Shown: positions 5,029 to 30,135 of the stretch, piece by piece
Layout of the letters: each line of letters starts with the position of its first letter
Position numbering within the stretch: the first letter of the stretch is position 1
From: Amycolatopsis balhimycina FH 1894
GTDB taxonomy: Bacteria > Actinomycetota > Actinomycetes > Mycobacteriales > Pseudonocardiaceae
Reading direction: 5' to 3'
Length of the DNA: 64,000 nt
NCBI RefSeq assembly: GCF_000384295.1
Contig: NZ_KB913037.1
Coordinates: forward strand, 9,995,508-10,059,507
Translations under genes and position numbers: made by a program
The notes under the pieces: model-generated
Told to the model about the DNA's origin: nothing
What the model saw: the letters and a program-made list of their open reading frames with translations, nothing else
Databases searched by the model: none

Positions 5029-5035
5029 GCCATCC

Positions 5036-9259: not shown

Positions 9260-10555
9260 GTGACGGATCGGCAGGCGGAACCCGCACCGGCGAAGAAAGC
9301 GCTTACGTCCGACCAGCGCAACTCCTTCCTCGCGGCGCTGCTCGGCTGGAGCATGGACTCCTTCGACTACTTCCTCGTCGTCTTCGTCCTCGCGGACATC
9401 GCCAAGGACAAGTCGTTCGGGGCGACCGCGACGCAGCTGGCGTTCATCACGACGGCGACGCTGGTGATGCGCCCGGTCGGCGCCCTCCTGTTCGGCCTGT
9501 GGGCTGACCGCGTGGGCCGGCGCATCCCGCTGATGGCCGACGTCCTGCTGTACTCGGTGGCCGGTCTGCTGTGCGCGTTCGCCCCGAACTTCACGGTGCT
9601 GCTCGTCCTGCGGTTCGTCTACGGCGTCGGCATGGGCGGCGAGTGGGGCCTGGGCGCGGCGCTGGCGATGGAGAAGATCCCGGTGGCGCGCCGCGGGTTC
9701 TTCTCGGGCCTGCTGCAGGTCGGCTATTCGATCGGGTACCTGCTGGCGGCGCTCGCGTACCTGCTGTTCCACTCGGCACTCGGCCTGCAGTGGCGCTGGA
9801 TCTTCGTGCTCAGCATCTTCCCGGCGCTGATCAGCCTGCTGATCCGGGCGCGGGTCCGGGAGTCCGAGGTCTGGGAGGCCGCGCGGGAGAAGCTGAAGCT
9901 GACGCGGACGTCGGTCAAGGACATCTTGCTGAACCCGAAGGTGATCCGCCGCTTCGGCTACCTGATCCTGCTGATGACGGCGTTCAACTGGATGAGCCAC
10001 GGCACCCAGGACGTCTACCCGAGCTTCCTCAAGGCCCACGAGAACGGCGGCGCCGGGCTCAGCGCGTCGACGAGCACGTGGATCGCGGTGCTGTACAACG
10101 TCGGCGCCATCATCGGCGGGCTGACCTTCGGCACGCTGTCCGAACGGCTGGGCCGCCGCCGCACGATCGTGACGGCCGCGGTGCTCGGTCTCCCGGTCGT
10201 CCCGATCTTCGCGATCGACCACGGCGCGGGAATGCTCGCGCTCGGCTCGTTCCTGATGCAGATCATGGTCCAGGGCGCGTGGGGCGTGATCCCGGCGCAC
10301 CTGACCGAGATGTCCCCGGACGCGATCCGCGGGTTCTACCCGGGCGTGACCTACCAGCTCGGCAACCTGCTGGCGGCGCTGAACCTGCCGATCCAGCAGG
10401 CGATCGCCGAGTCCCACGGGTACCCCTCGGCTCTCGTGTGGACAGTCGTGCCCGGGCTGATCGCCGTCGCCGTCCTGACCGCGATCGGCAAGGAGGCCAA
10501 GGGAATCCGGTTCGGCGAGGGGGTCGTGACCACGGCGCCGTCCGGCACGAAGTAG
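9260..10555 (+). CDS. MFS carboxylate transporter
   Basis: A 431-residue 12-helix carrier of the metabolite:proton symporter group. The loop-2 motif [15 protein letters not shown] is intact, and [10 protein letters not shown] in helix 1 and [15 protein letters not shown] in helix 4 are typical of lactate/sialate/aromatic acid carriers. The repeated loop motif [12 protein letters not shown] marks the second half. The substrate cannot be fixed; a small carboxylate is most likely. I chose the GTG giving MTDRQAEP after GGGGCGAAC rather than a GTG nine codons upstream. Confidence 0.85.
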
Positions 10556-10638
10556 CCGACCCGCCCTGGCCGCGGGCGCCCGGTGCCCGGCACACTACCG
10601 GGGTGCGCCCGGGACCGGGCGCGGGAGCGAGGGGTCTC

Positions 10639-11145
10639 GTGCGGCGTGGGTGGGTGGTCGCGGCAGCCGGTGCCGTCGTCGTGGGCGTGGTGGCCCTGGT
10701 GGTGTGGTGGCCCTCGGGCGGGGACGACGGTCTGCCGCCCGCGCGGGCGCGGGTCTACGCCGACTTCTCGGCGTGCCTGCTCACCGGGGAACAGGGCCTG
10801 GCGAGCCCCGGCGCCGCACCGGTGTGGGCCGGGCTGCAGGACGCGTCCGCCGACACCGCGATCAAGGTTTCCTACCTCGCCGCGGCGGGACCGGCGACCG
10901 ACGCGAACTACCTCCCCTACCTGAACTCCTTGGTGCAGCGCCGCTGTGACGTGATCGTGACGGTGGGGCAGCCGGGCACCGCCGTGGCGCTCGCGCAGGC
11001 GGCCGCGCACCCCGGAATCCGGTTCGTGATCGTCGGCGCCTCGGGGCACCCGGCGGCCAACGTCTCCCCCGTGGGGGTGAGCGGGCACGTCCGCGAAGAC
11101 GTCGCCGGGGCGGTCCGGGAGGCCGCGCACGCCGCCGGGCACTGA
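10639..11145 (+). CDS. Membrane-anchored BMP-like binding-domain protein
   Basis: A 168-residue protein with one N-terminal hydrophobic helix (residues about 6-25) followed by a short extracellular domain. Its segments (RVYADFSACLLTGEQGL, KVSYLAAAGP, CDVIVTVGQPGTAVALAQA, FVIVGASG) resemble one lobe of BMP/ribose-type periplasmic binding proteins. The domain is shorter than a full two-lobe protein, so ligand binding is uncertain. The GTG start follows GAGGGG. A GTG 12 codons upstream is also possible. No transporter genes are adjacent. Confidence 0.7.
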   Translation: MRRGWVVAAAGAVVVGVVALVVWWPSGGDDGLPPARARVYADFSACLLTGEQGLASPGAAPVWAGLQDASADTAIKVSYLAAAGPATDANYLPYLNSLVQRRCDVIVTVGQPGTAVALAQAAAHPGIRFVIVGASGHPAANVSPVGVSGHVREDVAGAVREAAHAAGH

Positions 11146-11300
11146 AAATTTGGTCCTCGTTCGTCCTTTTTGACAGGCTTTCACCCGAGTCGGACGTGTC
11201 CGTCCTCTCAGGATTCCGTGCTTTCGCAGTCTTTTCCGGACGGCCGCCGATGTGGTGAACTCATCCGCCGTTCGTCGGGGATGGACATCGAGGGGGACCC

Positions 11301-17300: not shown

Positions 17301-20300
17301 GGCAGCAGCCACAAGTGGTCGTTCTCCCGGTTCGGCACCGACGCGTCCAACGCCACCGCCTACCGCGCGGAGTCGTCGGCCGACGCGCAAGCCGGGGTGT
17401 GGACGCACCTCGCGGGGGTTTACGACTCGGGCACCGGCACCATGACGCTGTACGTCAACGGCGCGGCGGCCGGGAGCACCACCGATCCGTCGCCGATGGC
17501 GTCGGGCGGCCCGCTGGTGATCGGCCACGGCTGGTACCTCGGTGCCAACGGCAACTACGCCACCGGCCAGGTCGGCAGCGTGCAGGCCTACTCGCGGGCG
17601 TTGACGGCCGCCGACGTCACGACTGTCTACAATGGAGGCCGTAACGGCGGCACCGTCGCCTCGTCGACGGTGGAGACGACGACCTGGGCCGTCGACCAGC
17701 GCGGGCTGCCGACGTCGATGACCGACGCGAACGGCAACACGACGTCGTACGCCTACGACGAGGCCGGAAAGCCCGTGGTGACCACCGCGCCGACTGTGAA
17801 CACCGAGACGAACGGCGGCCCGGCCACCGCGGTGCACCCGGTCACCACCACCGGGTACAACACCTTCGGCGAGCCGGTCGAGGCGCTCGACCCGGACGGC
17901 AACCAGGTGACGACCGTCTACGACGCGGAGGGGCAGCCGGTTTCGGTCACCAACCCGAACTACACCCCGCCCGGCGGCGGCTCGCCGGTCACGGCGACGA
18001 CCGTGCGCACGTACGACAAGCTCGGGCAGGTCGTCGCCGAGAAGGACCCGCTCGGCCACGTCACGACCCTGGCCTACGACCAGCTCGGCGACCTGGCCCA
18101 GGTGACCAAGCCGTCCGGCGCGAAGGCCGTGTCGACGTTCGACACCAACGGCGACCGGCTCTCGGTCGTCGACGCGAACGGCGCCCGGACCGAGGCGACC
18201 TACGACTTCCTGTCCCGGCCGCTGACGTCGACGGCGTTCGAACGCTACCCCTCGACGCTGACCGCGACGACGACGAACTCCTACGCCGCCTCCGCGAGCA
18301 ACCCGGGCGGCGCGCACCTGGCGTCGACCACGACGCCGGCCGGCGCGGTGACGTCCTACGGCTACAACGCCCTCGGGGAGACCACGTCGGTCACCGACCC
18401 GGCCGGGAACACCACCCGGTACGGGTACAGCTACCTCGGGGAGCGGACGTCGGTCACCGCCGCCGACAGCACCTCGACGGTGACGGCCTACGACCAGTCG
18501 AGCCGTCCGGTGCAGATGACCCGCAAGGACGCGACCGGCGCGGCGCTCCAGCAGACGTCGGCGACCTACGACGCGGGCGGGCGCCTGACGTCCAGTGTGG
18601 ACGGACGCGGCACCGCGCGGACGTTCACCTACGACGCGGGGAACCGCCTGGCGAGCGAGATCCAGCCGGTCTCGGCGACGGCGTCGATCACGACGTCGTT
18701 CGGTTACGACGCGGCGGGCAACCGGACCCGGTTCACCGACGGCCGCGGCAACCCGACGATCACCCGCTTCAACTCCTGGAACCTGCCGGAGGCCCTGGTC
18801 GAACCGGCCACGGCCGCTTACACCGCCGACGCAGACCGGACCTTCACCTCGGTCTACGACGCGGCGGGGCGCCCGGTCACGCAGACTCAGCCGGGCGGGG
18901 TGACCGTGTCGGCGGGCTATGACGACGACGGGAACCTGGTCAGCCAGTCCGGCAGCGGCGCCGACGCGGCGACCGCGACCCGGACGTTCGGCTACGACCC
19001 CGGCGGCCGGATGACCTCGGCCGCCACCGCGGAAGCGGGCGTCACCGGCCACTCGGACCACCAGGCGGCTTCCAGCGAGACCTTCACCTACAACGACCGC
19101 GGCGGGCTGCTGACGGCGAGCGGATCGGCGGGATCGTCGTCGTTCGCCTACAACACCGAGGGCCTGATGACCTCGCGCACCGACGCGGCGGGCACCACGT
19201 CGTACGGCTACGACAACGCCGACCGGCTCTCGGCCATCACCGACGCGGCCACCGGCGGCACGCAGACCCTGAGCTACAACACGCTCAACCAGGTCAGCGG
19301 GGTGAAGTACGGCACCGGCAACGCGCGGACGTTCTCCTACGACGGCCTGCACCGCCTGACCGGCGACGCGCTCAAGACGGCCGGGGGAGCGGCGATCGCG
19401 TCGGTGACCTACGGCTACGACGCGAACAGCAACCTGACGTCGAAGACGACCGCCGGGTTCGCGGGTACGGCGGCGAACACCTACACCTACGACCTGGCCG
19501 ACCGGCTGGCGTCGTGGAACAACGGCGTCAGCACGGTGGCCTACGGCTATGACGCTTCGGGCAACCGGACCCAGGTGGGCTCGTCGACGTACACCTACGA
19601 CGCGCGCAACGAACTGACGTCGGACGGGTCGAACACCTACAGCTACAGCGCGCGGGGAACGCTGCGCCAGCGCGCGTCGTCGACCGGCACCCTGGTGTCC
19701 TCTTCGGACGCGTTCGGCCAGATGGCCGTGCAGGGCACGCAGAACTTCGGCTACGACGCCCTGGGTCGCAACCTGACCGACACGACGATCGCGTCGGGCG
19801 CGACGACGACGTTCTCGTTCTCGGGAATGGGCAACACGATCGCGTCGGACGGCTCGTCGACCTACAGCCGTGACCCGGGCGGCGGCCTGGTCGGGATCGC
19901 GTCGGGCGGGAGCGGTGCGTTCGCCTTCGTGGACCAGCACACCGACGTGGTGGGGACGTTCACGGCGACCGGGGCCGCGCTGGCCGGGTCGACGGCCTAC
20001 GACCCGTTCGGGAACGTGCTGGCGTCGGCGAACGGGAAGGGCCGGCTGGGTTACCAGTCGGGCTGGACGGACCAGTCGACGGGCAACGTGAACATGGCGG
20101 CGCGCTGGTACAACCCGGCGGTCGGGCAGTTCATGAACCGGGACACGGTGTCGAACAGCCCGGTGCCGAACCCGATGGAGGCGAACAAGTTCGCCTACGT
20201 CGACGACAACCCGATGACGGGAACGGACCCGTCCGGCCACGGCCTGTTCGACTGGATCGGCGACACCTTCGTGAAGCCGGCGGCGTCGTTCGTCTACCAC

Positions 20301-22091
20301 CAGGTGATCCAGCCGGCGGCGCACTTCGTGAACACGTACGTGGTCCAGCCGATCGTGCACGTGGCGGTGGCGAGTTACCACGTGGTCCGCGACGTCTACC
20401 ACGCGGCGGCGCGAGTGGTCCGCAACACCTATCACGCCGTGGTCAGGGTGGCGAAGAAGGTCTATCACGCGGCCGTGCATGTGGTGAAAACCGCGTATCA
20501 CGCGGTGGCGAAAGTCGTGAAGACGGCGGCTCATGCGGTGGCGCACGCGGCGAAGGCGGTGGCCCACGCGGCCGTGTCGGCGGCAAAGACAGTGGGCCAC
20601 GCGGTGGCGACGGCGGCGGTAGCGGTCGGTCACGCGGCGGCGTCGGCGGCGTCGCACGTGGCGACGTTCGTGAAGGACCACGCGTCGACGATCGCGGGTA
20701 TCGCGGCGGGTGTGGTGGTCGGTGCGGCGTGTACGGCGGCGACGTTGGGTATCGGCGCGGTGGGCTGCGCGGCGATCGGTGGCGCGGTCGGTGGTGCGGT
20801 TTCGTACGGGATGGATTGTTCGAAGGCGCACAACTGCTCGGCGGTTGGCGCGGTCGAGGCTGTCGGTCTGGGTGCGCTTGGTGGTGCTTTGGGTGCCGGT
20901 TTGGCTGGTCCGCTGGGCGGCAAGCTGGTGTCGGATGCGTTGAACGGCGTTCTGCCGGAGGTGGCGACCCAGGGTCTGGTGGGTGCGGGCTCGGGGGCGA
21001 TCAGCGGCGGTGTGACGGCGCTGGCCGGGTATGGGATGAACTGCGGCCGGAGCTGTTCGGTGAGTGGTGCGCTGTCGGCGGCGGGTTCCGGGGCGCTGGC
21101 CGGTGGTGTCGGTGGTGCGGCGTTCGGGGCGTTGGGTGGTTTGCGGGCGCGGGGCCGGAGTTCGGCGGAGGAGGAAGCTCCTTCTTCGAAGTGTGAGACA
21201 GCCGAGGCGCACAGTTTCCTCGCAGGCACGAAGGTGCTGCTGGCGGACGGCACTTCGAAGCCGATTTCGTCAGTGAAGGTCGGCGACCGGGTCGCGAACT
21301 CGCAGCCGGGTAAGGCCGGTGTGGAAGCGCATTCGGTCGATCGGGTGATCGTGACCCAGACGGACCACGACTTCGTGGACTTGAAGGTGAAGCCGAGCCG
21401 GGGCCGAAGCGCGGTGGGTCGTGTGGTGGCGGGCCTGGCTGTTGCCGCGGCGGTCGTTACGGGCGGCGCGGCGACGGCTTCGGCTGCGCCGGCGACGTTG
21501 ACGACGACGTATCACCACCCGTTCTATGACGTGACACGCGGTGCGTTCGTGGAAGCGGTGAACCTGCAGGCGGGCGACCATCTGCAGACCGCGGACGGCG
21601 GCGAGGCGACAGTCGAGGAGGTCACCCCGTATCACTCGACGGAGGCCACCTACGACCTGACGATCGACCAGTTGCACACGTATTATGTGTTCGCGGGCGA
21701 CATGCCGGTACTGGTCCACAACTGCGGCGGGCCGGTCATCGAGCTCAAATACAAGTCGAGCTGGAATGCGGAGCAACGCGCAGTGGCCGACCAAAAAGTC
21801 GCGGCATTGAATGCTGCGGACAGGCTGGTCGTGACGAATGCTGCTGAAGCTCGCGGCACGACCAGCGCTGCCGACGTTTGGAGAGCGGCGGGCCGGGAAA
21901 TTCCCGCAGGATCTGACATCGACCATGTCGTCGACTTGCAACTCGGCGGCGCAGACGATATTTCGAATATGAGCCCGCTGGACCTATCGGTAAACCGAAG
22001 TCTTGGTCCGCAAATTGACCGCCAGATCAAGAAATTGGGGTTGAAGCTTGGAGATACCGTATGCAGTGTTATAATCCGTGATCGTTGTTAG
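11301..22091 (+). CDS. Giant secreted RHS/YD-repeat polymorphic toxin with Hint and HNH-like nuclease
   Basis: A 3,596-residue protein. Order: signal peptide (about 1-30), N-terminal domain common to actinobacterial RHS proteins, DNRLRE-type domain (about 352-530), Fn3-like domain (to 632), YD-repeat shell interrupted by three LamG jelly-rolls (about 882-1103, 1172-1389, 1907-2103), and an RHS core end at about 2934 (RWYNPAVGQFMNRDT). Then come 11-residue helical repeats (3026-3124), a Gly/Ala-rich segment, a Hint autoprotease (HSFLAGTKV at 3304 to VLVHNCGG near 3476), and a roughly 118-residue toxin with DIDHVVDLQLGG, typical of HNH-like nucleases. The GTG start has GAGGGGG upstream. The shell probably encloses the toxin until Hint releases it; the immunity candidate follows at once. 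Confidence 0.92.
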   Translation: MRRRAARFCAASILLGLGLSLGSGQADAAQLAPGHLPVAELGSWLGSLFSGSPHWGATPRQAAGTADGKGHDASAASTRATGGAGKTPGTGRGELPADNGHRTKVNPGPSGVASRGFDPATSRRDAAKSTATMNYFTNADGSVTRDYTRGPVNFADGPWGWRPIDTTVRGGQDGRWHETANSLSVDFAADAADPALAKLAVDNGHTISYGLQDAHAVKPRVDGHAATYPGALPGTDVTLEPTTTGLKESLVLHSAAAANSWVFPLALDGLTPRLEADGSVSLLDGAGAIRQRIPRGYAFDAKVDPVSGVPATTYAVGYELTTAAGKPALKITLDPKWLADPARVFPVTVDPTFTDTPSSTYAEIGAPGDHSMEKTVKIGSYNSGPDSANTFLQFPKDLDGSQVTVSSATLKLFDTWASTCTAARLDVAPVTQAWTPAGVSAYPGPSFGASIGNVTPSVPNACANRAADRTVGDWVNVPLSTATFTNWANGSASDYGLAVYAATNDSLHWKQFDSWLMNAGYQPVLSLTTSGNVPPVIDSAFPGAGGTTTSLVPFLFATAHDIDAGPSALKYRYQVADSAGTTIADSGLVNEGTWRVPAGKLKYNQTYYWAVQAYDGSSYSADPPWNPLTVSVDQPLVTSSLSQNTGVHGVEPSIGNYTTSATDAEVRTVGPALSVVRNYNSRDPRSTGAFGAGWSSVFDARAAEQYDFDGSGTVVSVLVTYPDGSEVGYGKNADGTFSPPAGRFATFKAVTGGYSLTDKNDTVYTFTQALGSGVYQLSSIADASGRTVNLTVSGGRPAALTSAVSGRALHLAWTTPAGATSPHVASVSTDDVTAGAPLTWTYSYAGDQLTAVCPPGTTTACTKYGYTSGSPYRTSILDLGPHSFWPLAETTGTTAASAVLANEGTDAATYHNVTLGQGGPLAGSAATAAGFNGTSSYLQLPRADASAPNTMSVSMWFKTAATNGVLFSYSTMPLSEATSPASQYTPALYVGNDGKLVGEYWTGGTDKTITTANPVNDNAWHHVVFTHSSTSQGMYLDGQFVGQSVGAIVPMGPQNRFIGAGFLGNAWPDQSHGGQPGTATFFNGQIADVGIWDRSVPGVQEMPLYQAGKQQASLLTSITRPSGAVHTTVSYDPVSQAVTQIGDENGGTWKYAPLAVSGSSQVYRGAVLGSQPELYQRLADAPGTASPAGEVNYRPSAYTNATLGVTGPFTDSTAAKFPGTVGGVTLPDHLVNASTTASVELWFSTTSTAAGTLFSTGNSALGAANPSGGAMPVLYVGTDGKLHGHFWDNSVAGMASPGKVNDGKWHHVVLSGANTSQVLYLDGLQIGTLSAQIFNSDPLNFAGAGVYNSNGWPAAPSGNTWNYFSGSIGEVAYYRSALTAAQATQHFLAAGNSQGLAPLTTSTITDPAGKTSVQQYEPGAGNHKVSETDTNGKRTTYGYDTSGFLHTTTDPNGNVVTVGHDVRGNVVSQTTCQDQAAERCSTSYSTYFPDDTTAQLTTADARNDLMLTSRDPRSSSATDPAYLTTFGYDTAGNRTTVTTPPVPGFPNGRTTTITYSDGTSAFPAADSGNVPAGLPVKTTSPGGAVNRIAYLHNGDVASTTNADGLVTRLTYDALGRVLTKTAVSDSFPAGLVTSYTYDSNDQVVSQTDPAVTDRVTGAVHTAVATSVYNADGSITSQTVSDSTGGDAARTTSSTYNDKDQVASTTDANGNVTTYAYDVYGNKKSETDANGTETDFTYDGEGRLLTQGFWSTGNPADPKPATFVTQKSNAYDPAGRLASETDSMGNVTAYTYTDNGLTATVTKKDPAGTQSFVAESNTYDAAGNLVGKVTGNGANTSTSTVDAAGRVSQAVDDPAGAARTTSVSYTPDDKVATSTQTDPSGRSRTVSTSYDPMGVLTSRSVAADGTGHPVGWWKLNQTSGTTVTDSSGTGNTAAASAVTWSGGAATLDGTSSQIATNGPVLNTAASYTVSAWVKPATLGSAFQTYVVQKGAVMSGLYLEYDGSSHKWSFSRFGTDASNATAYRAESSADAQAGVWTHLAGVYDSGTGTMTLYVNGAAAGSTTDPSPMASGGPLVIGHGWYLGANGNYATGQVGSVQAYSRALTAADVTTVYNGGRNGGTVASSTVETTTWAVDQRGLPTSMTDANGNTTSYAYDEAGKPVVTTAPTVNTETNGGPATAVHPVTTTGYNTFGEPVEALDPDGNQVTTVYDAEGQPVSVTNPNYTPPGGGSPVTATTVRTYDKLGQVVAEKDPLGHVTTLAYDQLGDLAQVTKPSGAKAVSTFDTNGDRLSVVDANGARTEATYDFLSRPLTSTAFERYPSTLTATTTNSYAASASNPGGAHLASTTTPAGAVTSYGYNALGETTSVTDPAGNTTRYGYSYLGERTSVTAADSTSTVTAYDQSSRPVQMTRKDATGAALQQTSATYDAGGRLTSSVDGRGTARTFTYDAGNRLASEIQPVSATASITTSFGYDAAGNRTRFTDGRGNPTITRFNSWNLPEALVEPATAAYTADADRTFTSVYDAAGRPVTQTQPGGVTVSAGYDDDGNLVSQSGSGADAATATRTFGYDPGGRMTSAATAEAGVTGHSDHQAASSETFTYNDRGGLLTASGSAGSSSFAYNTEGLMTSRTDAAGTTSYGYDNADRLSAITDAATGGTQTLSYNTLNQVSGVKYGTGNARTFSYDGLHRLTGDALKTAGGAAIASVTYGYDANSNLTSKTTAGFAGTAANTYTYDLADRLASWNNGVSTVAYGYDASGNRTQVGSSTYTYDARNELTSDGSNTYSYSARGTLRQRASSTGTLVSSSDAFGQMAVQGTQNFGYDALGRNLTDTTIASGATTTFSFSGMGNTIASDGSSTYSRDPGGGLVGIASGGSGAFAFVDQHTDVVGTFTATGAALAGSTAYDPFGNVLASANGKGRLGYQSGWTDQSTGNVNMAARWYNPAVGQFMNRDTVSNSPVPNPMEANKFAYVDDNPMTGTDPSGHGLFDWIGDTFVKPAASFVYHQVIQPAAHFVNTYVVQPIVHVAVASYHVVRDVYHAAARVVRNTYHAVVRVAKKVYHAAVHVVKTAYHAVAKVVKTAAHAVAHAAKAVAHAAVSAAKTVGHAVATAAVAVGHAAASAASHVATFVKDHASTIAGIAAGVVVGAACTAATLGIGAVGCAAIGGAVGGAVSYGMDCSKAHNCSAVGAVEAVGLGALGGALGAGLAGPLGGKLVSDALNGVLPEVATQGLVGAGSGAISGGVTALAGYGMNCGRSCSVSGALSAAGSGALAGGVGGAAFGALGGLRARGRSSAEEEAPSSKCETAEAHSFLAGTKVLLADGTSKPISSVKVGDRVANSQPGKAGVEAHSVDRVIVTQTDHDFVDLKVKPSRGRSAVGRVVAGLAVAAAVVTGGAATASAAPATLTTTYHHPFYDVTRGAFVEAVNLQAGDHLQTADGGEATVEEVTPYHSTEATYDLTIDQLHTYYVFAGDMPVLVHNCGGPVIELKYKSSWNAEQRAVADQKVAALNAADRLVVTNAAEARGTTSAADVWRAAGREIPAGSDIDHVVDLQLGGADDISNMSPLDLSVNRSLGPQIDRQIKKLGLKLGDTVCSVIIRDRC
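20376..20672 (+). repeat. 33-bp hendecad-coding repeat tract in the RHS gene
   Basis: Nine consecutive 11-residue units such as YHAVVRVAKKV, VHVVKTAYHAV and VSAAKTVGHAV, encoded by diverged 33-base repeats. The pattern is an amphipathic helix with period 11. The last unit (ASAASHVATFV) is the sequence that recurs as scars further downstream. Confidence 0.8.
20658..21173 (+). repeat. 516-bp exact direct repeat, copy 1
   Basis: Appears identical by eye, including silent positions, to 22693-23208, with an offset of 2,035 bases. It encodes the Gly/Ala-rich segment between the helical repeats and the Hint domain. Identity stops sharply after GCGGAGGAG. Confidence 0.9.
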
Positions 22092-22114
22092 TGGCCATAT
22101 GTGGAGGTGGTGGG

Positions 22115-22666
22115 GTGGAGAGTGTGCCCCAAGAGATTTCCAGGGTGGTGCGCACAAGCGCGGGCTTGTGCGCGGTTTGGCAGCCGGAAGCCTTCAAGTC
22201 TATGGAGGACGATTTCGAACTTTGGGAGGATTGGGCTACCGAAAATCATGAAATAGAGAAGTCGATCAGTCGGGGCATCTTCGTGCCGCTCAATGTTGGC
22301 GGCGATGGAGTGTTTCAGGTGACGGTCAGAGTCGGCTCGCCTGAACTCGACCTCACCGAATCCGAGCGCAGGTATCGCCTCGTCGAATCGGAACCTTATC
22401 TGTTCACCTCATTGGGTTCCTTTGCGGTGGGCGGGATTGAGGATATCTGTGACGTTGATCGTGTCGCGGAAAACAGGTTTCCGCTGGCCGAAGGTCGATA
22501 CTCGGTTGTGGTCAACCTGATCGATTGGAAGGCTGATCCGAATTCGATTGGCTCGGATGGTCGGCCGCTCCCGTCCGCATTGCCAGACTTCCTTGTGCTT
22601 GTCCGGCCGGAAGTGTCGTCAGCGGGCAATTTTCGGACAAAGGTGGAGACCTTTGTGAGGAATTAG
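22115..22666 (+). CDS. Candidate immunity protein for the RHS nuclease
   Basis: A 183-residue cytoplasmic protein of a type I do not recognise, 23 bases after the RHS stop. This is where polymorphic toxin loci carry the cognate immunity gene. GC content and codon use are lower than in surrounding genes, as is usual for such modules. The GTG start (VESVPQEISR) has GGAGG seven bases upstream. The N-terminal part (FKSMEDDFELWEDWATE) recurs in a decayed relic near 25.8 kb, so related immunity genes have occupied this locus more than once. Confidence 0.75.
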   Translation: MESVPQEISRVVRTSAGLCAVWQPEAFKSMEDDFELWEDWATENHEIEKSISRGIFVPLNVGGDGVFQVTVRVGSPELDLTESERRYRLVESEPYLFTSLGSFAVGGIEDICDVDRVAENRFPLAEGRYSVVVNLIDWKADPNSIGSDGRPLPSALPDFLVLVRPEVSSAGNFRTKVETFVRN

Positions 22667-22671
22667 TTTCT

Positions 22672-22692
22672 CCGGCGTCGGCGGCGTCTCAT
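22672..22692 (+). repeat. RHS anchor junction 2
   Basis: CCGGCGTCGGCGGCGTCTCA repeats the end of the helical tract (ASAASH) a few bases after the stop of the immunity gene and leads in frame into the second 516-bp copy. It marks where a displaced C-terminal cassette begins. Confidence 0.75.
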
Positions 22693-23208
22693 GTGGCGAC
22701 GTTCGTGAAGGACCACGCGTCGACGATCGCGGGTATCGCGGCGGGTGTGGTGGTCGGTGCGGCGTGTACGGCGGCGACGTTGGGTATCGGCGCGGTGGGC
22801 TGCGCGGCGATCGGTGGCGCGGTCGGTGGTGCGGTTTCGTACGGGATGGATTGTTCGAAGGCGCACAACTGCTCGGCGGTTGGCGCGGTCGAGGCTGTCG
22901 GTCTGGGTGCGCTTGGTGGTGCTTTGGGTGCCGGTTTGGCTGGTCCGCTGGGCGGCAAGCTGGTGTCGGATGCGTTGAACGGCGTTCTGCCGGAGGTGGC
23001 GACCCAGGGTCTGGTGGGTGCGGGCTCGGGGGCGATCAGCGGCGGTGTGACGGCGCTGGCCGGGTATGGGATGAACTGCGGCCGGAGCTGTTCGGTGAGT
23101 GGTGCGCTGTCGGCGGCGGGTTCCGGGGCGCTGGCCGGTGGTGTCGGTGGTGCGGCGTTCGGGGCGTTGGGTGGTTTGCGGGCGCGGGGCCGGAGTTCGG
23201 CGGAGGAG
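22693..23208 (+). repeat. 516-bp exact direct repeat, copy 2
   Basis: Second copy of 20658-21173. Perfect identity contrasts with the diverged Hint domains that follow, which suggests recent gene conversion or recombination. Confidence 0.9.
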
Positions 23209-24111
23209 CCGGCGTCCTGTCCGCTGCCGCACAGCTTCTTGGCGGGGACCAAGGTGCTGTTGGCGGATGGTTCGTCGAAGCCGATTTCCGCCGTTCGGGT
23301 GGGTGACTGGGTCGCGAACTCGCAGCCTGGCCGCGCCGGTTCGGAGGTTCACCCGGTGGATCGGGTGATCGTGACGCAGACGGATCACGACTTCGTGGAC
23401 GTGAAGGTGAAGCCGAGCCGGGTTCGCCAGGCGGTGGGTCGTGTGGCGGCGGGCCTGGCGTTGGCGGCCGGTGTCGTGGCCGGCGACGCGGTGCCGGCGT
23501 CGGCGTCGACCTTGACGACGACGTATCACCATCCGTTCTACGACGTGACACGTGGTGCGTTCGTCGAGGCGGTGAACCTGCAGGTGGGCGACCGCCTGCA
23601 GACCGCGGACGGCAGCGAGGCGTCGGTGGAGGAGGTGACTCCGTACCACTCGACGGAGGTCACGTACGACCTGACGATCGACGAGCTGCACACGTACTAT
23701 GTGTATGCCGGTGACGTCCCAGTCCTCGTCCACAACTGCGGCGGTGAGCTTCCAGGGCATCGGGCAGTGTGTGAATGTGCGAACGGTGCCAAGCCTGCGA
23801 TGATCCGAGGCCCCAAGCCGGCCGGCACCGGGCCACACAATCTCAAGATTGCCGAAGTCGCCGAGCAAGTGACGGACGGTGATGTGATCGCGGGTGGTGG
23901 TACGCTGCCGGAACAAGGGTTCTCGACGCCCGGTGGATTCAAAGGTTCGCGTCGTCCCGACATTCTCGTTGAGCGGGAGGACGGCACACAGTACGGGATC
24001 AACGTCGGGAAACAGTCAATGCGAACCGGTGCCCCCATCAGACGTGAAGCCGAAGCCATCTCGGATCTTGAAGGAATCGGCATGGAGATGCACTTCGTGT
24101 CTTACAACTAG
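22693..24111 (+). CDS. Displaced RHS C-terminal cassette: Hint plus restriction-endonuclease-like toxin
   Basis: A 472-codon frame lacking signal peptide and RHS shell. It starts (formally at GTG) inside the anchor sequence, repeats exactly the pre-Hint segment of the intact gene, then has a Hint domain (HSFLAGTKV to VLVHNCGG) clearly diverged from the intact copy. It ends with a different toxin of about 120 residues. That toxin contains RRPDILVEREDGTQYGINVG followed by KREAEAIxDLEG-like residues, resembling restriction-endonuclease-fold toxins (inferred). It may be silent and serve as a spare cassette for recombination into the upstream gene. Confidence 0.8.
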   Translation: MATFVKDHASTIAGIAAGVVVGAACTAATLGIGAVGCAAIGGAVGGAVSYGMDCSKAHNCSAVGAVEAVGLGALGGALGAGLAGPLGGKLVSDALNGVLPEVATQGLVGAGSGAISGGVTALAGYGMNCGRSCSVSGALSAAGSGALAGGVGGAAFGALGGLRARGRSSAEEPASCPLPHSFLAGTKVLLADGSSKPISAVRVGDWVANSQPGRAGSEVHPVDRVIVTQTDHDFVDVKVKPSRVRQAVGRVAAGLALAAGVVAGDAVPASASTLTTTYHHPFYDVTRGAFVEAVNLQVGDRLQTADGSEASVEEVTPYHSTEVTYDLTIDELHTYYVYAGDVPVLVHNCGGELPGHRAVCECANGAKPAMIRGPKPAGTGPHNLKIAEVAEQVTDGDVIAGGGTLPEQGFSTPGGFKGSRRPDILVEREDGTQYGINVGKQSMRTGAPIRREAEAISDLEGIGMEMHFVSYN

Positions 24112-24121
24112 CGAGAAGCCT

Positions 24122-24646
24122 GTGAAATTTACTTTCTATTTCCATGCCAGTCGTGAGGAAATCGCCGCGTTGGCCGGAGAGTGGTCGACCGAGTTGGGTG
24201 CGTCGTTGGTGGCGGAGAGGTTCTTCCCTGGTTACGAAGCCTGCCTGTTGGATGCGAATGAGGCGGGTCGGGTTATCCGCGAAGATGCTACGGTAAACCG
24301 AATTTCGCTGGTTCCAGACGAGGTTGAATTGAATGTCGCATCGGCTTTGAACTTTGCTAAAAAGAACCCCGGTTCGCTCTTTATTCTTCTTGGCAAGCAA
24401 GACGATTTGCGCCTCAAGGAAACCGTCGTATCAGGTATGTCGGACGACCCGGCTATTGTGCGCAAATGGAAAAGTATCCGCGACCGTGTCAGGCGTTCGA
24501 TGATCAAGATTTCGAGGGTTGAGAACACCGTCACGGGCGCCTCTGTTGAAGTAACGGGTCATTACTGTACCCATGAAGTCAAAAGGCTCGCCGACTCAGG
24601 TCTTTTGCTTGTGGGGGGAACCGAGTGGACTAGGTATACGCTCTGA
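24122..24646 (+). CDS. Candidate immunity protein for the second cassette
   Basis: A 174-residue protein 10 bases after the stop of the displaced toxin cassette. It starts at GTG (VKFTFYFHASREEI). I do not recognise a family. The low GC content and position match an immunity gene paired with the restriction-endonuclease-like toxin. No signal peptide or membrane segment is visible, fitting protection against a cytoplasmic toxin. Confidence 0.7.
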   Translation: MKFTFYFHASREEIAALAGEWSTELGASLVAERFFPGYEACLLDANEAGRVIREDATVNRISLVPDEVELNVASALNFAKKNPGSLFILLGKQDDLRLKETVVSGMSDDPAIVRKWKSIRDRVRRSMIKISRVENTVTGASVEVTGHYCTHEVKRLADSGLLLVGGTEWTRYTL

Positions 24647-24737
24647 TCTGCACGGTCTAGGGCATTGACAGGTTGGAAGCCTGGTAAGCCACGTCACCGG
24701 TCTATTGCAACGACAGTTTCGCGGTAGCGAGCGACGG

Positions 24738-24792
24738 CGATGGCGGTGGGCCATGCGGCGGCGTCGGCGGTGTCGGGTGTCGCATGTGGCTC
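24738..24792 (+). repeat. Decayed RHS anchor scar 3
   Basis: Fragment similar to the end of the RHS helical tract (AVGHAAASA then a shifted copy of the CATGTGGC end), out of frame and preceded by a second partial GCGGTAGCG match. It lies just upstream of an orphan immunity-like gene. Confidence 0.65.
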
Positions 24793-24834
24793 GCCGATGC
24801 AGTAGTTCTTGACTCCGCAATGTATGGGGGAATC

Positions 24835-25182
24835 GTGAGCGATGAAGGTGTCGATGAGGTGCAACTGGCCGAGATTGAGGAGATTGCGTTATCGGCCACG
24901 CCGGGCCCGTGGTACGTACGCTACTTCGATGACCAGGTGGCCATGAATCTGATCGCGGTAGGTACGAGAGCGGGAGACGCGGTTCAGAGGTTTCCGGAGT
25001 TTGACTCCTCCGGAGTTGTTGCCGCTACACTTGTTCAGCATCCAAGATATGTGGATATTTCAGACGGAAAATGGGAAGAAAACGCCCGGTTTATCGCCGA
25101 GTCTCGTCACGTGGTGCCTATGTTGGTGGCTGAGGTGAGGAGGTTGCGAGCACGCTTGGGTCAGCTTGGTGAAACGGAGTAG
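24835..25182 (+). CDS. Orphan immunity-like protein C
   Basis: A 115-residue protein starting at GTG (VSDEGVDEVQLAEI) with GGGGGA upstream. The pattern ATPGPWYVRYFDD near residue 25 and ENARFIAESRHVVPMLVAEV near the C-terminus is found in small proteins of phages and actinobacterial polymorphic-toxin loci. The function is unknown. It follows a decayed RHS anchor without a toxin, so it is probably an orphan immunity gene left after its toxin was replaced. Confidence 0.6.
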   Translation: MSDEGVDEVQLAEIEEIALSATPGPWYVRYFDDQVAMNLIAVGTRAGDAVQRFPEFDSSGVVAATLVQHPRYVDISDGKWEENARFIAESRHVVPMLVAEVRRLRARLGQLGETE

Positions 25183-25212
25183 TCGCTAGGTCGCACGACT
25201 GTTGTGACGCGC

Positions 25213-25253
25213 TACGGCGTCGGCTGCGTCGCATGTGGCGACGTTCGCGAAGG
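25213..25253 (+). repeat. Decayed RHS anchor scar 4
   Basis: GGCGTCGGCTGCGTCGCATG and the following GTGGCGACGTTCGCGAAGG match the anchor of the intact gene (ASAASHVATFxK), but the frame ends in TGA at once. Confidence 0.7.
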
Positions 25254-25257
25254 CTTG

Positions 25258-25332
25258 AATGAGATGATCTTCGACAGTTTGCTGAAGATTCCTGCCGAGA
25301 ACGTCATCTATCACGGAAGGAATCCCTTCTGA
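25258..25332 (+). pseudogene. C-terminal remnant of a fourth RHS toxin
   Basis: A 24-codon open tail (NEMIFDSLLKIPAENVIY, then HGRNPF) directly after scar 4 but in a different frame. Its stop overlaps the start of the next gene (TGATG). This overlap is typical of a toxin/immunity pair, so the piece is most likely the last residues of a lost toxin. Confidence 0.55.
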
Positions 25333-25736
25333 TGTCAGTGCTCACCGAGTTTGGATCGGCAAATGAGCTGGAGGCACTGCTCCGTGCTGCGATGGTGGTG
25401 AAGTTCGAACAGTCAGGCGAGTCGGAGTTGCTGACGGGAAGTCCGGTCTTCGCCTCGGCGGTGGGGACTGTGCGGGAAAGTCTCATCGAGGAGTTGCGCA
25501 CCATTGGATCAGCGGGTAACGCTCAGCGGCAGGCTGATTGGTACCGGCTATCCCAGCATCGTCATCTGTGGGCTGTCGTGGCAAGTCGCGCGGCTTCTCA
25601 TCCGCGTTGGCGCGAACTCGACGAGGTCGGCCGTATTTCCTGGATCGAGACACTTGCTGCGCCTCTGACTGTTGATCGTCAAACCTTCTCGTCAATTCAG
25701 TCGATGGCCGAAGGTCCGACCACGTCGGATCATTGA
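25332..25736 (+). CDS. Orphan immunity-like protein D
   Basis: A 134-residue mostly helical protein (MSVLTEFGSANELEALLRAA), family not recognised. Its ATG overlaps the stop of a toxin-tail remnant (TGATG), and an RHS anchor scar lies about 80 bases upstream. I infer an immunity gene retained after loss of its toxin. It ends about 60 bases before the relic of another immunity gene. Confidence 0.62.
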   Translation: MSVLTEFGSANELEALLRAAMVVKFEQSGESELLTGSPVFASAVGTVRESLIEELRTIGSAGNAQRQADWYRLSQHRHLWAVVASRAASHPRWRELDEVGRISWIETLAAPLTVDRQTFSSIQSMAEGPTTSDH

Positions 25737-25782
25737 CGGATGTCGATGCCCAGCCTGGCAAAGTGCCGCCGGGCTGATGGCG

Positions 25783-25885
25783 TGTGCTTGCGGGCACGCG
25801 CAGGCGGAAGCTTTCCGGTCCATGGAAGATGATTTCGAACTTTGGGCGGGCCGGGCAACCGAAGATAGCCGTGGAGACCTTCGAG
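25783..25885 (+). pseudogene. Relic of a second copy of the first immunity gene
   Basis: The translation EAFRSMEDDFELWAGRATED matches EAFKSMEDDFELWEDWATEN of the immunity protein at 22115-22666. About 10 bases later GTGGAGACCTT matches its 3' end, so the middle of the gene has been deleted. It lacks start and stop in frame. Confidence 0.7.
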
Positions 25886-25927
25886 CGGCCCTAGTCTGCG
25901 ACCGCGACTCCGGAATGTCCAGCGCGG

Positions 25928-27586
25928 TCACCGTCGCCGCACCGCCAGGAACGCGAACAACCCGGCGACCAGCCAGATGACCCCCGCCCCGATCCACCCC
26001 GCCGCGTCGGTGGCAGGGTCCATCGCCATACCCGCGGTGGCCAGCAGGGCGAACACGCCGACGATCGACGCCACCACAGTGAAGGCGATCGACCCGCCCT
26101 TCCGACCAGCCGCAGCCGGTGGCCGGGTGCTCGCGGCGGTGGCCGGGCGCGGGATCTCCTCCGGGCGGCGGGCGGGCTGCGGCAACGTCCGATGTGGACC
26201 CACCGCCGCGTCGATCGACGCCACCACCTCCGGTGCGAGACCCGCGAACAGCGTCGGCTCGACAGCGACCGTCCGGCCGTCGGTGCCGATCAGGCGCCGT
26301 CCGCCGTCGGGCCAGGCCAGCATGGCCGCGCAGTCCGCGAAACGGACCGTCGACGCGCCGTCCGGTGTCTGCACGCTGCAGCCGTCGGTCCCGGCGATCA
26401 GGTGGGTGTTCACCTCCTTGGAGGCGGGAAAGCGGGTCCCCTCGACGACGGCCGCCGAGTAGCGCGGCACCTCCGTGTAGCCCGCCCAGTCCGCCGAACG
26501 CCCGGCCGGCACCCGGAGCAGCACCGAACCGCAGGCCTCGACGGCGACCGCGTGGACGTCGGCGGCGCTGACCGACCGCAGCTCGGCGATCCGCTCCTCC
26601 GGCGTGCGAAGGGGCCGTCCGGACAGGAGCCGGGCCGCGTGGTGCGGGAGCAGCGCCACGTCCGCGTCGGCGCCGTACAACGCCGATTCGGCCTGGCCGC
26701 GCACCGCCTCGATGTCGCGGGGGTCGATGCGGCCTGCCTTGACCTTGGCCAGCACGTCGACGATGCCGCCGACCACGGCGTCCTGCTTGTCCGGCAGGGC
26801 GTCCGCCAGGCCCAGGATCTCGGCGAAACCCTCGCCGCGCCGCTGGTACGACGTCGTGGCCTGGTACGAGTAGCCGCCTTCCTGACGCAGGGCGCGGAAC
26901 AGCTCCCGCTCGAGCACCTTGGCGAAGATCTGAGCGGCAGCTCCCTGACGCACCACGGCGCTGAACCGGACCTCGCCGCTGCCTTGCGCGAAGTACGTCG
27001 GGGTCCGGGGCAGCACCGCCGGGCGGGCCGGGATCGGATGCCGGGCACCCGGTGGCAGGGACAGCCGCAAGCCCGACGGTACCGTCTCACCGGCCACCCA
27101 CAACGCCGCGTTCTCGCGCGTGAACCACGTGCGCGCCCAGTGCGCTACCTCCGCCGGCCGCAGACGCGGTACCCCCAGCTCCAGGTAGTCGACCAGGCCG
27201 TAACCCTGGGCGCCGTACCGGTGGCGGTACAGCGACCCGGCCCCGCCGCGGCCCGCCTCCTCGGTGCGCAGGATCGACTTCTCCGTCTCCAGCCGGTCCA
27301 TCGGGAGGTTGCCGAGCGACGCGCACACGGCTTCGAGGAACGAGACCACTTCGGACTCCGAACCCTGCATCTCGAAGTACGTGTGGTCCGGCGCCGTCGC
27401 GCCGTTGAAGTGGTAGTCGCCGAGGCCGAACCGGTGCAGGGCCAGGTGTTCGACCAGGTGCGTGATGCCCGCGGTGGCCAGCGTCTCGTCCGCGCGGCCG
27501 ACGCGGAAGATCAGGCCGGCGGTCAGCGGGCCCGCTCTCTTGGCCGCCACGGCGGGGATTCCGTCGACGTCGAAAGTGGAGGGCAC
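25928..27586 (-). CDS. M16-like zinc peptidase with C-terminal membrane segments
   Basis: A 552-residue protein. The inverted zinc motif HLVEH is at residues 43-47, with an ETEKSILRTEE segment about 55 residues later that may give the third ligand. The second half contains the RALRQEGGYSYQ motif common to M16 peptidases. Residues about 490-550 form two hydrophobic helices, so it is probably membrane-anchored. M16 proteins cleave small peptides; in actinobacteria some process natural-product leader peptides, but no such cluster is visible here. The GTG start lies four bases after the stop of the upstream gene. Confidence 0.82.
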   Translation of the reverse strand: MPSTFDVDGIPAVAAKRAGPLTAGLIFRVGRADETLATAGITHLVEHLALHRFGLGDYHFNGATAPDHTYFEMQGSESEVVSFLEAVCASLGNLPMDRLETEKSILRTEEAGRGGAGSLYRHRYGAQGYGLVDYLELGVPRLRPAEVAHWARTWFTRENAALWVAGETVPSGLRLSLPPGARHPIPARPAVLPRTPTYFAQGSGEVRFSAVVRQGAAAQIFAKVLERELFRALRQEGGYSYQATTSYQRRGEGFAEILGLADALPDKQDAVVGGIVDVLAKVKAGRIDPRDIEAVRGQAESALYGADADVALLPHHAARLLSGRPLRTPEERIAELRSVSAADVHAVAVEACGSVLLRVPAGRSADWAGYTEVPRYSAAVVEGTRFPASKEVNTHLIAGTDGCSVQTPDGASTVRFADCAAMLAWPDGGRRLIGTDGRTVAVEPTLFAGLAPEVVASIDAAVGPHRTLPQPARRPEEIPRPATAASTRPPAAAGRKGGSIAFTVVASIVGVFALLATAGMAMDPATDAAGWIGAGVIWLVAGLFAFLAVRRR

Positions 27587-27589: not shown

Positions 27590-28532
27590 TCAGCCTTTCG
27601 CGAGGGCACGGGCGCGGCGCCGCTCGAGTTCGGCGACCGGATCGGGCAGGTAGGTCCACGGGATTTCACTGGCGCGCCCGTCGAGCGCGCGGAAGTGCGC
27701 GGCCGCGCGTGGCTCGTCGCCGATCAGGCTGAACGCCATGGCGAACACGCTGTGCCCGCTGACCCAGCCGAAGCGCGACCGGTACGCCGGGTGCAGCACC
27801 GAAGACGTCGCCGCGGCGGCGAGTTCCTCGTGGACCGAAGGCTGCCGCAAGTGCTTCACCCCGTCCTGGGCGCCCAGGTCCAGCCAACGTTCGAGGTGCA
27901 GGTCGGCGATCAGGACGCCCTGGGGGTCTCCGGGCCGCGCCGCGGCCGTGCACTCGCGGACGAACGCCTCCGCCGCTTCCCAGGAACCGCCCCATTTCGG
28001 GCACAGCTGCCCGAGCAGGTTGCTCTGCGCGGAAAGGAAGCCGGGGGTGGTGGACGGTCAGCCGATCGTAGCGGCGCCGCGTTTCGCTCTGGCCGAGCTC
28101 CAGGCCCCGCGAAGTGATGATCCGCAGCCACCAGGCCAGCTCGTTGGCGGGCTCACGCGCGGTGACGTCGATCAGGAGCCGCTCGGCGTGCCGCAGCTGC
28201 TCGTGCATCCCGGCGAACTGCGCACGGCTGACGTGGGCCGCGCGCGCCGAGGTCCGGATCGTCCATCCCCGTTGGACGAGGTGGGCGGCGAGCAGCACCC
28301 GGGCCAGGCTCGACCGGCGGTCCCGCTGGATCGCGTCCCGGAGCATCGGCTCGGCCGACGGCACGTCCATCGTGACCTTCATCCCGAAGCTGCGCTCGTC
28401 CGGGGCGGTGAACCGGGCGAAAAAGGCCGAAACGGTCGGCCAGTCGCCCGCTTGGGTGGCGTCGCGCAGCACACGCGCTTCGGGAAATGCGACAGCCGGG
28501 TCGAAAACCGGCGCCGGAGGCGCGGAAGCCAT
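27590..28532 (-). pseudogene. Helical-repeat protein gene interrupted by a frameshift
   Basis: The frame starts at ATG (MASAPPAPVFDP) after a good GAGGAAC site and is open for about 160 codons. It leaves frame near the GGGGG run at 28044-28048 and is continued in another frame to 27590. The joined product would be about 313 residues with TPR-like helices (ARVLLAAHLVQRGW, NELAWWLRIITSRGLEL, ERWLDLGAQDG). The total length is one base more than a multiple of three, consistent with a single-base insertion in the G run. It is directly upstream of the M16 gene. The break may be real or a sequencing error. Confidence 0.65.
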
Positions 28533-28596
28533 GAAGTTCCTCGGTCCGGAGGGAAAACAGACCCCGGACTCTACTTCGCGTTGTCGATCAAGGTTC

Positions 28597-28630
28597 GCGG
28601 TGGCCGGGACCCCCAGGACCCGGCCACCGC
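28597..28630 (-). terminator. Hairpin terminator after the sialidase gene
   Basis: Perfect 12-bp stem GCGGTGGCCGGG / CCCGGCCACCGC with a ten-base loop, just beyond the sialidase stop on the minus strand. No T-run, as usual in actinobacteria. Confidence 0.65.
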
Positions 28631-28641
28631 GGAGCGGAAAC

Positions 28642-30135
28642 TCAGCTGCAGTGTTCGAACTCGCTGTCGTAAGCCGCGCCACCGGCCGCGCCGCCCCACT
28701 TGACGCACTTGTCCGCCGCCGCTGCCTTGACCGGGCCGGCGAAGTAGGAGAACGAACCCGAGTCGGTCTGCCGCGCCGACCCCTTGACCTCCAGGTAGGC
28801 CGAGGTCGCCGTGGCCGTCCCGGCCGACGAGTTCTTCATGGTGCTGACGCAGTTCTGGCCGTTGGACGCGTTGTACGACAGGTACACCGTGCCCGCCGCG
28901 CCGCCGGTGCCCAGCGGCGCCGAGTCGATGACGCTGTAGCCGCCACCGCACGCCGGGGCGCCGAGCGCGGCTTCGGTGACCGTGGCGAAGCGGATCGCGT
29001 CGTAGGGGTGCTCGGTGGGGCCCACCTCGAACAGCACCCCGGCCGACGACTGCGACAGCTGCACCATGTCCGAGTACGCCGCGCCCGACCCCCACACGAG
29101 CAGGCTGCCGGCGTTGCCGGTCCAGTTGGCGCCTTCGTCGAACGACGAGTGCACGCGCAACTCCTCGCGCTCGCCGCAAACGGACGGTGCGGCGAACAGG
29201 ATCCGGTTGTACTTGCCGCCGGTGTCGGTGGCGCTCATCCGGGCCGTCGAACCCTCGACCGTCGGCGCGACGAGGTCGGTGGCGAAGTCGAACTTCGAGC
29301 TGAACGTGGCGCCGCCGTCCGAGCTGATCGCGAACGCGCGGTTGTGGGTGCCGTCTTCGAGGCACTTGTTGCCGTCGTTCGCCTGGTTGCGCGCGGCGGC
29401 GTAGATCCGGCCGTCCCGGAGTTCGGTGACGCTGATCTCCTGCGGGTTGATCGCACTGGTCGTCGGCTTGTCGGTCGCGCCGAGGTGCCAGGTGCTGCCC
29501 TGGTCGTCGCTGTAGACCAGCGCGCCGATGTTCGAGTAGCTCATCCCGGCGACGAGCCGGCCCTTGTGCGCGCCGCGCGTCAGCACGATCCCGTGGGACG
29601 GCCCGGTGGCCAGCCAGCCCGGCGCGGTCGGGAAGCCGAGTTCGGTGGTCAGCGTCTTCGGCGCGCCCCACGTCTTCCCGTTGTCCTCGCTGATGGACAC
29701 GCGCGGGATCCGGCCGCAGTCGGGATTGGTGTAGCACTGCATGGTCGACAGCAGCACGATCCGGTTGCTGCCCGGGATGACGATCGGCGCGGGGTTGCCC
29801 TTTGTGTCGCCGAACGCGGTGATGACGGTGTTCAGCGCGCCCCACGTCTTGCCATCGTCGGTGGAACGCTTCATCACGAGATCGATCTTGCCCAGGTCGG
29901 CGCAGGCGTGGGCGCCGCTGTTGCGGCCTTCGGCGAAGGCGAGCAGGTCGCCGTTGTTCGCCTTGACGATGGTGGGGATGCGGTAACAGTCATGTCCTTC
30001 GGTGTTCTTGTTGAACACCAGCGTGCTGGATACGTCGGCGTGTGCCGCCGCGGCGCCGATGGCCGCCGGGACGGCGACGGCGGCGCACCCCAGCAGCCCG
30101 GCCAGCAGGCCTTGGGCGAGTCGGGTGATCTTCAC
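28642..30135 (-). CDS. Secreted exo-alpha-sialidase (GH33-like)
   Basis: A 497-residue protein with a Sec signal peptide (about 1-34, ending AAAAHA). The arginine motif YRIPT lies near residue 52. Asp-box repeats mark the six-bladed propeller: STDDGKTW, SEDNGKTW, SDDQGSTW, SSDGGATF and SFDEGANW. Such enzymes release terminal sialic acids from glycoconjugates outside the cell. The C-terminus (ADKCVKWGG to EFEHCS) is a short Cys-containing tail rather than a full lectin domain. A helical-turn-spaced direct repeat upstream may control it. Confidence 0.9.
   Translation of the reverse strand: MKITRLAQGLLAGLLGCAAVAVPAAIGAAAAHADVSSTLVFNKNTEGHDCYRIPTIVKANNGDLLAFAEGRNSGAHACADLGKIDLVMKRSTDDGKTWGALNTVITAFGDTKGNPAPIVIPGSNRIVLLSTMQCYTNPDCGRIPRVSISEDNGKTWGAPKTLTTELGFPTAPGWLATGPSHGIVLTRGAHKGRLVAGMSYSNIGALVYSDDQGSTWHLGATDKPTTSAINPQEISVTELRDGRIYAAARNQANDGNKCLEDGTHNRAFAISSDGGATFSSKFDFATDLVAPTVEGSTARMSATDTGGKYNRILFAAPSVCGEREELRVHSSFDEGANWTGNAGSLLVWGSGAAYSDMVQLSQSSAGVLFEVGPTEHPYDAIRFATVTEAALGAPACGGGYSVIDSAPLGTGGAAGTVYLSYNASNGQNCVSTMKNSSAGTATATSAYLEVKGSARQTDSGSFSYFAGPVKAAAADKCVKWGGAAGGAAYDSEFEHCS

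Follow-up and report, generated by a model that had tools for sequence, protein, structure and literature searches.

In the rhs loci of enterobacteria, displacement of C-terminal tips leaves arrays of dissociated tips that carry identical core fragments, and circular intermediates have been proposed for this process (Jackson et al. 2009, PMC2935791). Evidence that an orphan tip can fuse with its main gene through a 522-bp shared stretch comes from Salmonella LT2 (Koskiniemi et al. 2014, PMC3967940). Displaced effectors have similarly given rise to arrays of immunity genes in the type VI secretion system (T6SS) of V. cholerae (Kirchberger et al. 2017, PMC5361080), and Zhang et al. (2012, PMC3482391) interpret rows of immunity genes as what successive tip replacements leave behind. 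Here we describe an RHS toxin locus in the actinomycete Amycolatopsis balhimycina FH 1894, whose 10.86-Mb genome is a single contig. It lies within a 64,000-nucleotide stretch (NZ_KB913037.1, positions 9,995,508 to 10,059,507), hereafter the window, to which all coordinates refer. A full-length RHS toxin gene is followed by a second toxin cassette that has no delivery shell and by a series of immunity-type genes, toxin remnants and short scars. We conclude that the locus is very probably a polymorphic RHS toxin tip-displacement array, in which tips were displaced repeatedly, the displaced toxins decay and their immunity genes stay.

Architecture of the locus

The main gene encodes a protein in which Pfam recognizes RHS_repeat (E 9e-94), PT-HINT (E 2e-11) and three Laminin_G_3 stretches. 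Shell and pretoxin Hint domain are thus identified by Pfam and NCBIfam, while the C-terminal tips fall below every family cut-off, so that neither toxin1 nor toxin2 is named by either database. The toxin and immunity parts have a G+C content of 53-60%, as against 71% for the window. The features are as follows.

11301-22091, plus strand: full-length RHS/YD-repeat toxin protein of 3596 amino acids, comprising shell, helical tract, linker, Hint and toxin1
20658-21173, plus strand: linker copy 1, 516 bp identical to 22693-23208
21210-21734, plus strand: Hint1, pretoxin self-cleavage domain (PF07591)
21735-22088, plus strand: toxin1 tip, predicted to be a probable HNH-type nuclease from weak matches below cut-off; a 96% identical tip occurs in A. 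vastitatis
22115-22666, plus strand: imm1, putative immunity gene of toxin1, directly behind toxin1 in the window and in A. vastitatis (locus L036; 92% amino acid identity)
22673-24111, plus strand: cassette 2, consisting of helix end, linker copy 2, Hint2 and toxin2 without a shell; open frame from a GTG at 22693
23746-24108, plus strand: toxin2 tip, for which a low-confidence model weakly suggests a PD-(D/E)XK-type nuclease, with homologues as RHS-Hint tips in L037 and L062
24122-24646, plus strand: imm2, putative immunity gene of toxin2; in L037 and L062, homologues (45% and 25%) immediately follow those of toxin2
24720-24800, plus strand: junction relic that runs from the end of the helix into the first part of the linker and matches 20600-20654 at 84% over 56 bp; the toxin of this module is gone
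24835-25182, plus strand: orfA, orphan immunity-type gene with a 58% homologue behind a Hint-PIN-like toxin in L066; an in-frame ATG also occurs at 24784
25204-25253, plus strand: junction relic of a further module, 92% over 39 bp (25215-25253) to 20638-20676
25261-25332, plus strand: remaining 3' end of a lost toxin, 23 codons and the stop, matching the C-terminus of the L078 Hint-toxin
25332-25736, plus strand: orfB, putative orphan immunity gene of the lost toxin; in L078 its homologue lies directly behind the Hint-toxin with the matching C-terminus
25800-25910, plus strand: imm1-type relic with its middle deleted, recognized by self-alignment and protein search

An earlier sequence-only reading of this DNA had listed a complete RHS toxin, a shell-less cassette, immunity genes, a toxin tail and an imm1 relic, all of which are present. 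The self-alignment of the region that it had proposed as a check recovered the cassette 2 copy, the imm1 relic and the short junction copies.

Shared linker and junction scars

An internal match of the region aligns 20638-21730 with 22673-23744 (89% over 1093 bp) and spans the helix end, the linker and the Hint domain. Its parts have diverged unequally: the linker copies show no differences at 128 fourfold sites, whereas the adjoining Hints differ at 32 of 88 (84% protein identity), and the identity of the linkers ends abruptly at a short spacer that differs in both sequence and length. The linker has therefore been recently duplicated or homogenised, while the Hints have long been separate. 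Both linker copies stand in codon phase 0, so that recombination between them would, as a matter of arithmetic only, leave the reading frame from shell to toxin2 unbroken.

Shorter copies of the helix-linker junction were placed by the self-alignment at 24720-24775 and 25212-25253. When an 86-bp junction query (20595-20680) was compared with the whole genome, and 40 of 527 first-look candidates were scored, the top three non-self matches among these 40 were the three sites of the array (E 9e-13, 3e-9 and 3e-9), and the next of the 36 weaker matches listed had E 3.5e-5. The motif ASAASHVATF, at the end of the helical tract, had been reported to recur before three modules; the three sites bear this out, but the shared sequence, the 516-bp linker, is far longer. 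The left edges of the copies are not uniform, as that of cassette 2 (22673) corresponds to 20638 and that of orfB (about 25215) also to 20638, while the orfA copy (24720) corresponds to 20600 and so starts further upstream in the helix.

Putative toxin and immunity pairs

The order of toxin and immunity gene recurs in other genomes, with imm1 directly behind its toxin in L036 and imm2 in L037 and L062. This position and conserved pairing mark imm1 and imm2 as putative immunity genes; the tips are predicted to be toxic and the immunity proteins to neutralise them. The toxin1 tip is probably an HNH-type nuclease, a prediction drawn from signals that are all weak (PF13930, E 0.008; PF01844, E 0.07; HNH fusion chains in the PDB, E 0.08). 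Searches of solved structures with the toxin tips gave no significant match, and models built from two-sequence alignments reached a mean predicted local distance difference test score (pLDDT) of 55.5 for toxin1 and 38.3 for toxin2. The secondary structure in the low-confidence toxin2 model would suit the PD-(D/E)XK pattern, and toxin2 is possibly such a nuclease.

Toxin2 was present in 3 of 348 genomes of the order (own genome included; one of the three matches is weak) and in 2 of 80 Amycolatopsis genomes, namely our own and G012, in which it is borne by another shell. It shares 79% amino acid identity with an RHS-Hint tip of Streptomyces sp. NRRL S-37 (L037) and 71% with that of G012 (L062); elsewhere it was found attached only to other RHS proteins. 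By eye, no clear ribosome-binding site precedes the GTG start of cassette 2, and toxin2 is therefore probably silent in the window.

The pairing of orfB with its former toxin can be traced further. The toxin tail (25261-25329) is 65% identical over 23 amino acids to the C-terminus of the L078 Hint-toxin (tblastn E 7e-7 in the 64-kb window), and its local score is 88, where 200 base shuffles of 24646-26000 never exceeded 40; a whole-genome search with the L078 toxin at E <= 0.001 missed this short tail. Matches to orfB occur in 6 of 297 genomes of the family (the sample also used for orfA, own genome included in both sample and count). Among six distinct places in the five other genomes, a Hint-toxin of the same kind lies upstream of the orfB homologue in three (L075, L078 and L079/L081), and the C-terminus that matches the tail was seen in L078. 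This toxin, which resembles the ART-HYD1 toxins by a motif, is named by neither Pfam nor NCBIfam.

For orfA, matches occur in 8 of the 297 genomes, again with our own, and the Hint-toxin in front of its homologue in L066 has a weak PIN match. No remnant of the L066 toxin precedes orfA in the window (tblastn against 24600-25400 gave one chance-level match, E 1.9). Among the 80 genus genomes the L066 toxin matches one, G041 (G041:C1:2207683-2207802; 55%, residues 2-41), where the match is a displaced module behind a broken Hint in a locus with the same shell as ours. The putative toxin of the window's orphan orfA therefore survives as a remnant in a sister array.

At the far end of the array, the imm1-type relic was found by self-alignment (25800-25866 against 22180-22246; 80.6%, E 6e-12) and again when the genome was searched at the protein level (25780-25869, E 5e-4, imm1 residues 16-45). 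Two pieces are left, one of about 67 bp from the 5' part and one of 35 bp that includes the stop codon; what lay between them has been lost. Its 3' piece, including the bases after the stop codon, is closer to imm1 of A. vastitatis than to the window's own imm1, a comparison that rests on a 35-bp match only.

Relatives with the same shell

A shell search of 80 Amycolatopsis genomes (our own included, three candidates scored per genome) found the shell end, helix, linker and Hint in five others: G078 (A. vastitatis, the nearest same-shell relative), G066, G041, G071 and G029. Their DNA is 82-87% identical over 1.6-2.6 kb. The six genomes bear five dissimilar tips, with pairwise tip identities of 0.10-0.28 except for the pair of window and A. 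vastitatis (0.96). A Pfam scan that covered the tips other than that of G066 and the main tip of G071 matched the G029 tip to Tox-HNH-EHHH above cut-off. Displaced linker or Hint DNA lies downstream of the RHS gene in three of the five relatives (G041, G071 and G029); in G071 it encodes a further Hint joined to a YwqJ-type deaminase, accompanied by a SUKH-3 gene. The G071 locus (L059, 4095-7502) contains two Hint-toxin frames with a SUKH-3 gene behind each, and the DNA of the two Hints agrees at 91% over 461 bp. In G029 the assembly splits the RHS gene (L086, 4369-12352) into at least two open frames, 4369-8961 and 8789-12352, which may reflect a real break or a sequencing error.

Downstream linker or Hint copies extend beyond these relatives. 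They were found in six of 24 self-compared loci (L040, L050, L053, L058, L059 and L060; L046 was left out of the comparison), three of which are from Streptomyces or Kitasatospora. L037 was not counted, since the second of its two similar Hints belongs to a separate RHS shell. In Streptomyces sp. G-G2 (L040, 6848-11056), a downstream linker-Hint copy is 89% identical over 1331 bp, and this appears to be another displacement array.

Behind its RHS gene, A. vastitatis has no cassette 2, imm2, orfA or orfB. Between imm1 and an M16-like gene it carries a DUF4265 gene (L036, 12055-12564) and a 153-amino-acid gene (12862-13323) without a Pfam match; by eye, a frame similar to the latter occurs in G066 (L057, 6227-6727), and none was noticed in the window. 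A sialidase-like gene adjoins the loci of the window, G078, G066 and G029 as well as a Hint stump in G061, and was not found in the G041 and G071 stretches. In the window this gene (28645-30135, minus strand) matches BNR_2 and also Tli3, a Pfam family of T6SS immunity proteins (E 1e-9). The stump in G061 (L061, 4723-5127) is a truncated Hint that stands alone next to the sialidase-like gene, which would fit a loss of the RHS gene.

Divergence of tip and shell

Comparison with A. vastitatis separates the history of the tip from that of the shell. The shell differs at 184 of 1916 fourfold sites (10%) and the segment from helix to toxin at 102 of 352 (Fisher p 8e-20); for the toxin1/imm1 module the share is 29-34% of such sites. 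The other counts are 30/90 for imm1, 76/334 for the M16-like flank gene and 65/261 for the sialidase-like gene, whose distance to A. vastitatis (0.25) is like its distance to other species (0.25-0.27). For orientation, 16 of 25 coding-like rows between 30 and 60 kb lie at 0.087-0.127 (range 0.039-0.186); these rows were picked by the third-position share of differences, not by annotation, from a listing in which some rows are shadow frames. Against G066, G041 and G071, distances are 0.28-0.32 in the shell and 0.32-0.47 over helix, linker and Hint, so that a faster-evolving tip explains part of the rise seen with A. vastitatis but not its threefold size. These distances suggest that recombination, independently of the shell, replaced the tip region and part of the right flank in one lineage or both; a long-standing polymorphism maintained in the population would give the same picture. 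Within the shell, one 150-codon bin (17151-17600) reaches a tip-like 28% of fourfold sites against A. vastitatis, perhaps a small conversion patch.

The sequence-only reading had pictured older modules pushed downstream. That toxin1/imm1 is the youngest module could not be demonstrated, since its fourfold divergence from A. vastitatis is 29-34%, against 10% for the shell. Relatives in which cassette 2 is fused to this shell had been named as a check; none was found among the 80 genus genomes, and toxin2 was found fused to other RHS proteins only.

Proposed displacement and its alternatives

In the mechanism that we favour, a module of linker, Hint, toxin and immunity gene would arrive from related bacteria and join the constant delivery shell through homology in the helix and linker, and the former tip would be left downstream without a shell. 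The displaced toxin would then lose expression, and the toxin DNA between scar and immunity gene would be deleted piecewise. The immunity genes would be retained, presumably for the protection that they give when relatives still carry the old toxin. We infer both that homologous recombination in the linker was the route and that protection is the reason for retention. The order of the displacement events likewise stays a matter of inference, because the toxin1 module is not demonstrably the youngest and toxin2 was not found on this shell. The proposal of repeated toxin-end replacement is in good agreement with the shared shell, the differing tips, the displaced remains in three of five relatives and a decay that grows with distance from the shell. 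The accompanying proposal that modules decay downstream holds for the toxin parts but not for imm2, orfA and orfB, whose frames are open and whose alignments with homologues cover most of each gene.

Several observations weigh against repeated displacement. Toxin2 sits on no same-shell RHS protein among the 80 genus genomes, and the L078-type toxin occurs in none of them, in a search that also missed the window's own 23-residue tail and is therefore hardly informative on short remains. Only one of six viewed orfA homologue loci (L066) places the gene behind a Hint-toxin, the others having no recognised toxin, and in all three viewed loci outside the genus no recognisable Hint-toxin stands in front of the imm1 homologue. 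The divergence pattern is also not clean: from the window to G029 the distance likewise rises, from 0.20 in the shell (353 fourfold sites of the RHS frame piece that bears the shell end) to 0.30-0.44, up to about twofold; the gene at 27666-28682, which separates the elevated M16-like and sialidase-like genes, has only 15 differences from A. vastitatis at 124 sites; and the upstream gene 6013-7026 is also high (49/199).

Some of these points would fit an independent acquisition, in which cassette 2 and the orphan genes were inserted downstream of an unchanged toxin1 gene without any displacement. A. vastitatis shares toxin1/imm1 on this shell but has none of cassette 2, imm2, orfA and orfB, and the toxin1 module is not young. 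We nevertheless consider this account unlikely, as every module opens, as former tips should, with the last part of the RHS helical tract, the tip region has a divergence history of its own, and the array ends in an imm1-type relic whose bases after the stop codon resemble those of A. vastitatis, over a match of just 35 bp. A standing switch, in which the identical linkers recombine regularly, so that toxin1 and toxin2 take turns on the shell within the population and both immunities are kept, would account for the 516 identical base pairs, the absence of differences at 128 fourfold sites and the equal codon phase; a 522-bp, 95% identical repeat has been proposed to act in this way in passaged Salmonella (PMC3967940). 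The identity, seen in one genome only, is explained equally by a single recent event, and simple recombination between direct repeats would delete toxin1 and imm1, so that the switch needs a duplication step; we think it improbable. The same low likelihood attaches to a broader version, in which the identical linker pair would be maintained as a reversible switch, with subpopulations that carry toxin2 on the shell, an array that preserves immunity to former and alternative toxins, and whole payload regions moving between Amycolatopsis species by recombination in shell and flank.

Two further explanations were set aside. The closeness and common orientation of imm2, orfA and orfB might indicate a polyimmunity locus, whose immunity genes were gathered as such and selected together. 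Such loci are described as never interrupted by toxin cassettes (Zhang 2012, PMC3482391), and here a toxin cassette, a toxin tail and junction scars stand between the immunity genes; these interruptions largely refute the idea, which we regard as very improbable. Integron-like, site-specific insertion of cassettes at the helix-linker junction is hardly credible. The three modules of the window and the copies in G041 and L053 do begin near the same place, but the left edges vary (20638, 20600 and about 20638; inside the helix in L040), with no integrase search made, and cassette 2 shares DNA through the whole linker. This explanation was rejected for want of a constant recombination site and on account of the varying module edges. 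Repeated displacement of tips thus stands as our preferred account of the locus.

Comparison with known systems

A partial search of the literature, covering titles and the beginnings of abstracts, returned no such array in Amycolatopsis, actinobacteria or actinomycetes. The process itself is already described for enterobacterial rhs, and what the locus adds is an unusually complete anatomy: a single locus shows an attached tip, an intact displaced cassette, a module whose toxin is lost and immunity kept, one of which the toxin tail only remains, and an immunity relic. The matched toxin tail and orfB make retained immunity against former toxins directly testable, and imm2, orfA and orfB, all without a Pfam family, receive tentative assignments as immunity genes.

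The locus shares features with each of the earlier systems. With the polymorphic toxin systems surveyed by Zhang et al. (PMC3482391) it has in common the order of toxin and immunity gene, standalone cassettes, Hint and RHS parts and strings of immunity genes; that work is a general survey, which does not name Amycolatopsis within its first 300,000 characters. As in the V. cholerae T6SS (PMC5361080), old effectors are lost, their cognate immunity genes lie in a 3' array and the 3' end of an effector is shifted back, although separate effector genes are concerned there and the tip of an RHS shell here. The resemblance to the Salmonella LT2 orphan (PMC3967940) lies in a main gene followed by a shell-less toxin/immunity pair that shares about 520 bp with it; the repeat is 95% identical there and 100% here, and fusion has experimental evidence there and is only a possibility here. 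Like the rhs loci of Enterobacteriaceae (PMC2935791), the window combines a conserved core with unrelated tips, downstream tips that carry sequence identical to the main gene, and a downstream region of low G+C content. It differs from them in being an actinomycete RHS system with a Hint domain, in that the identical segment is the linker behind the core rather than the core, and in that toxins are deleted while immunity genes stay. The locus thereby extends rhs tip displacement to actinomycete RHS proteins with a Hint domain.

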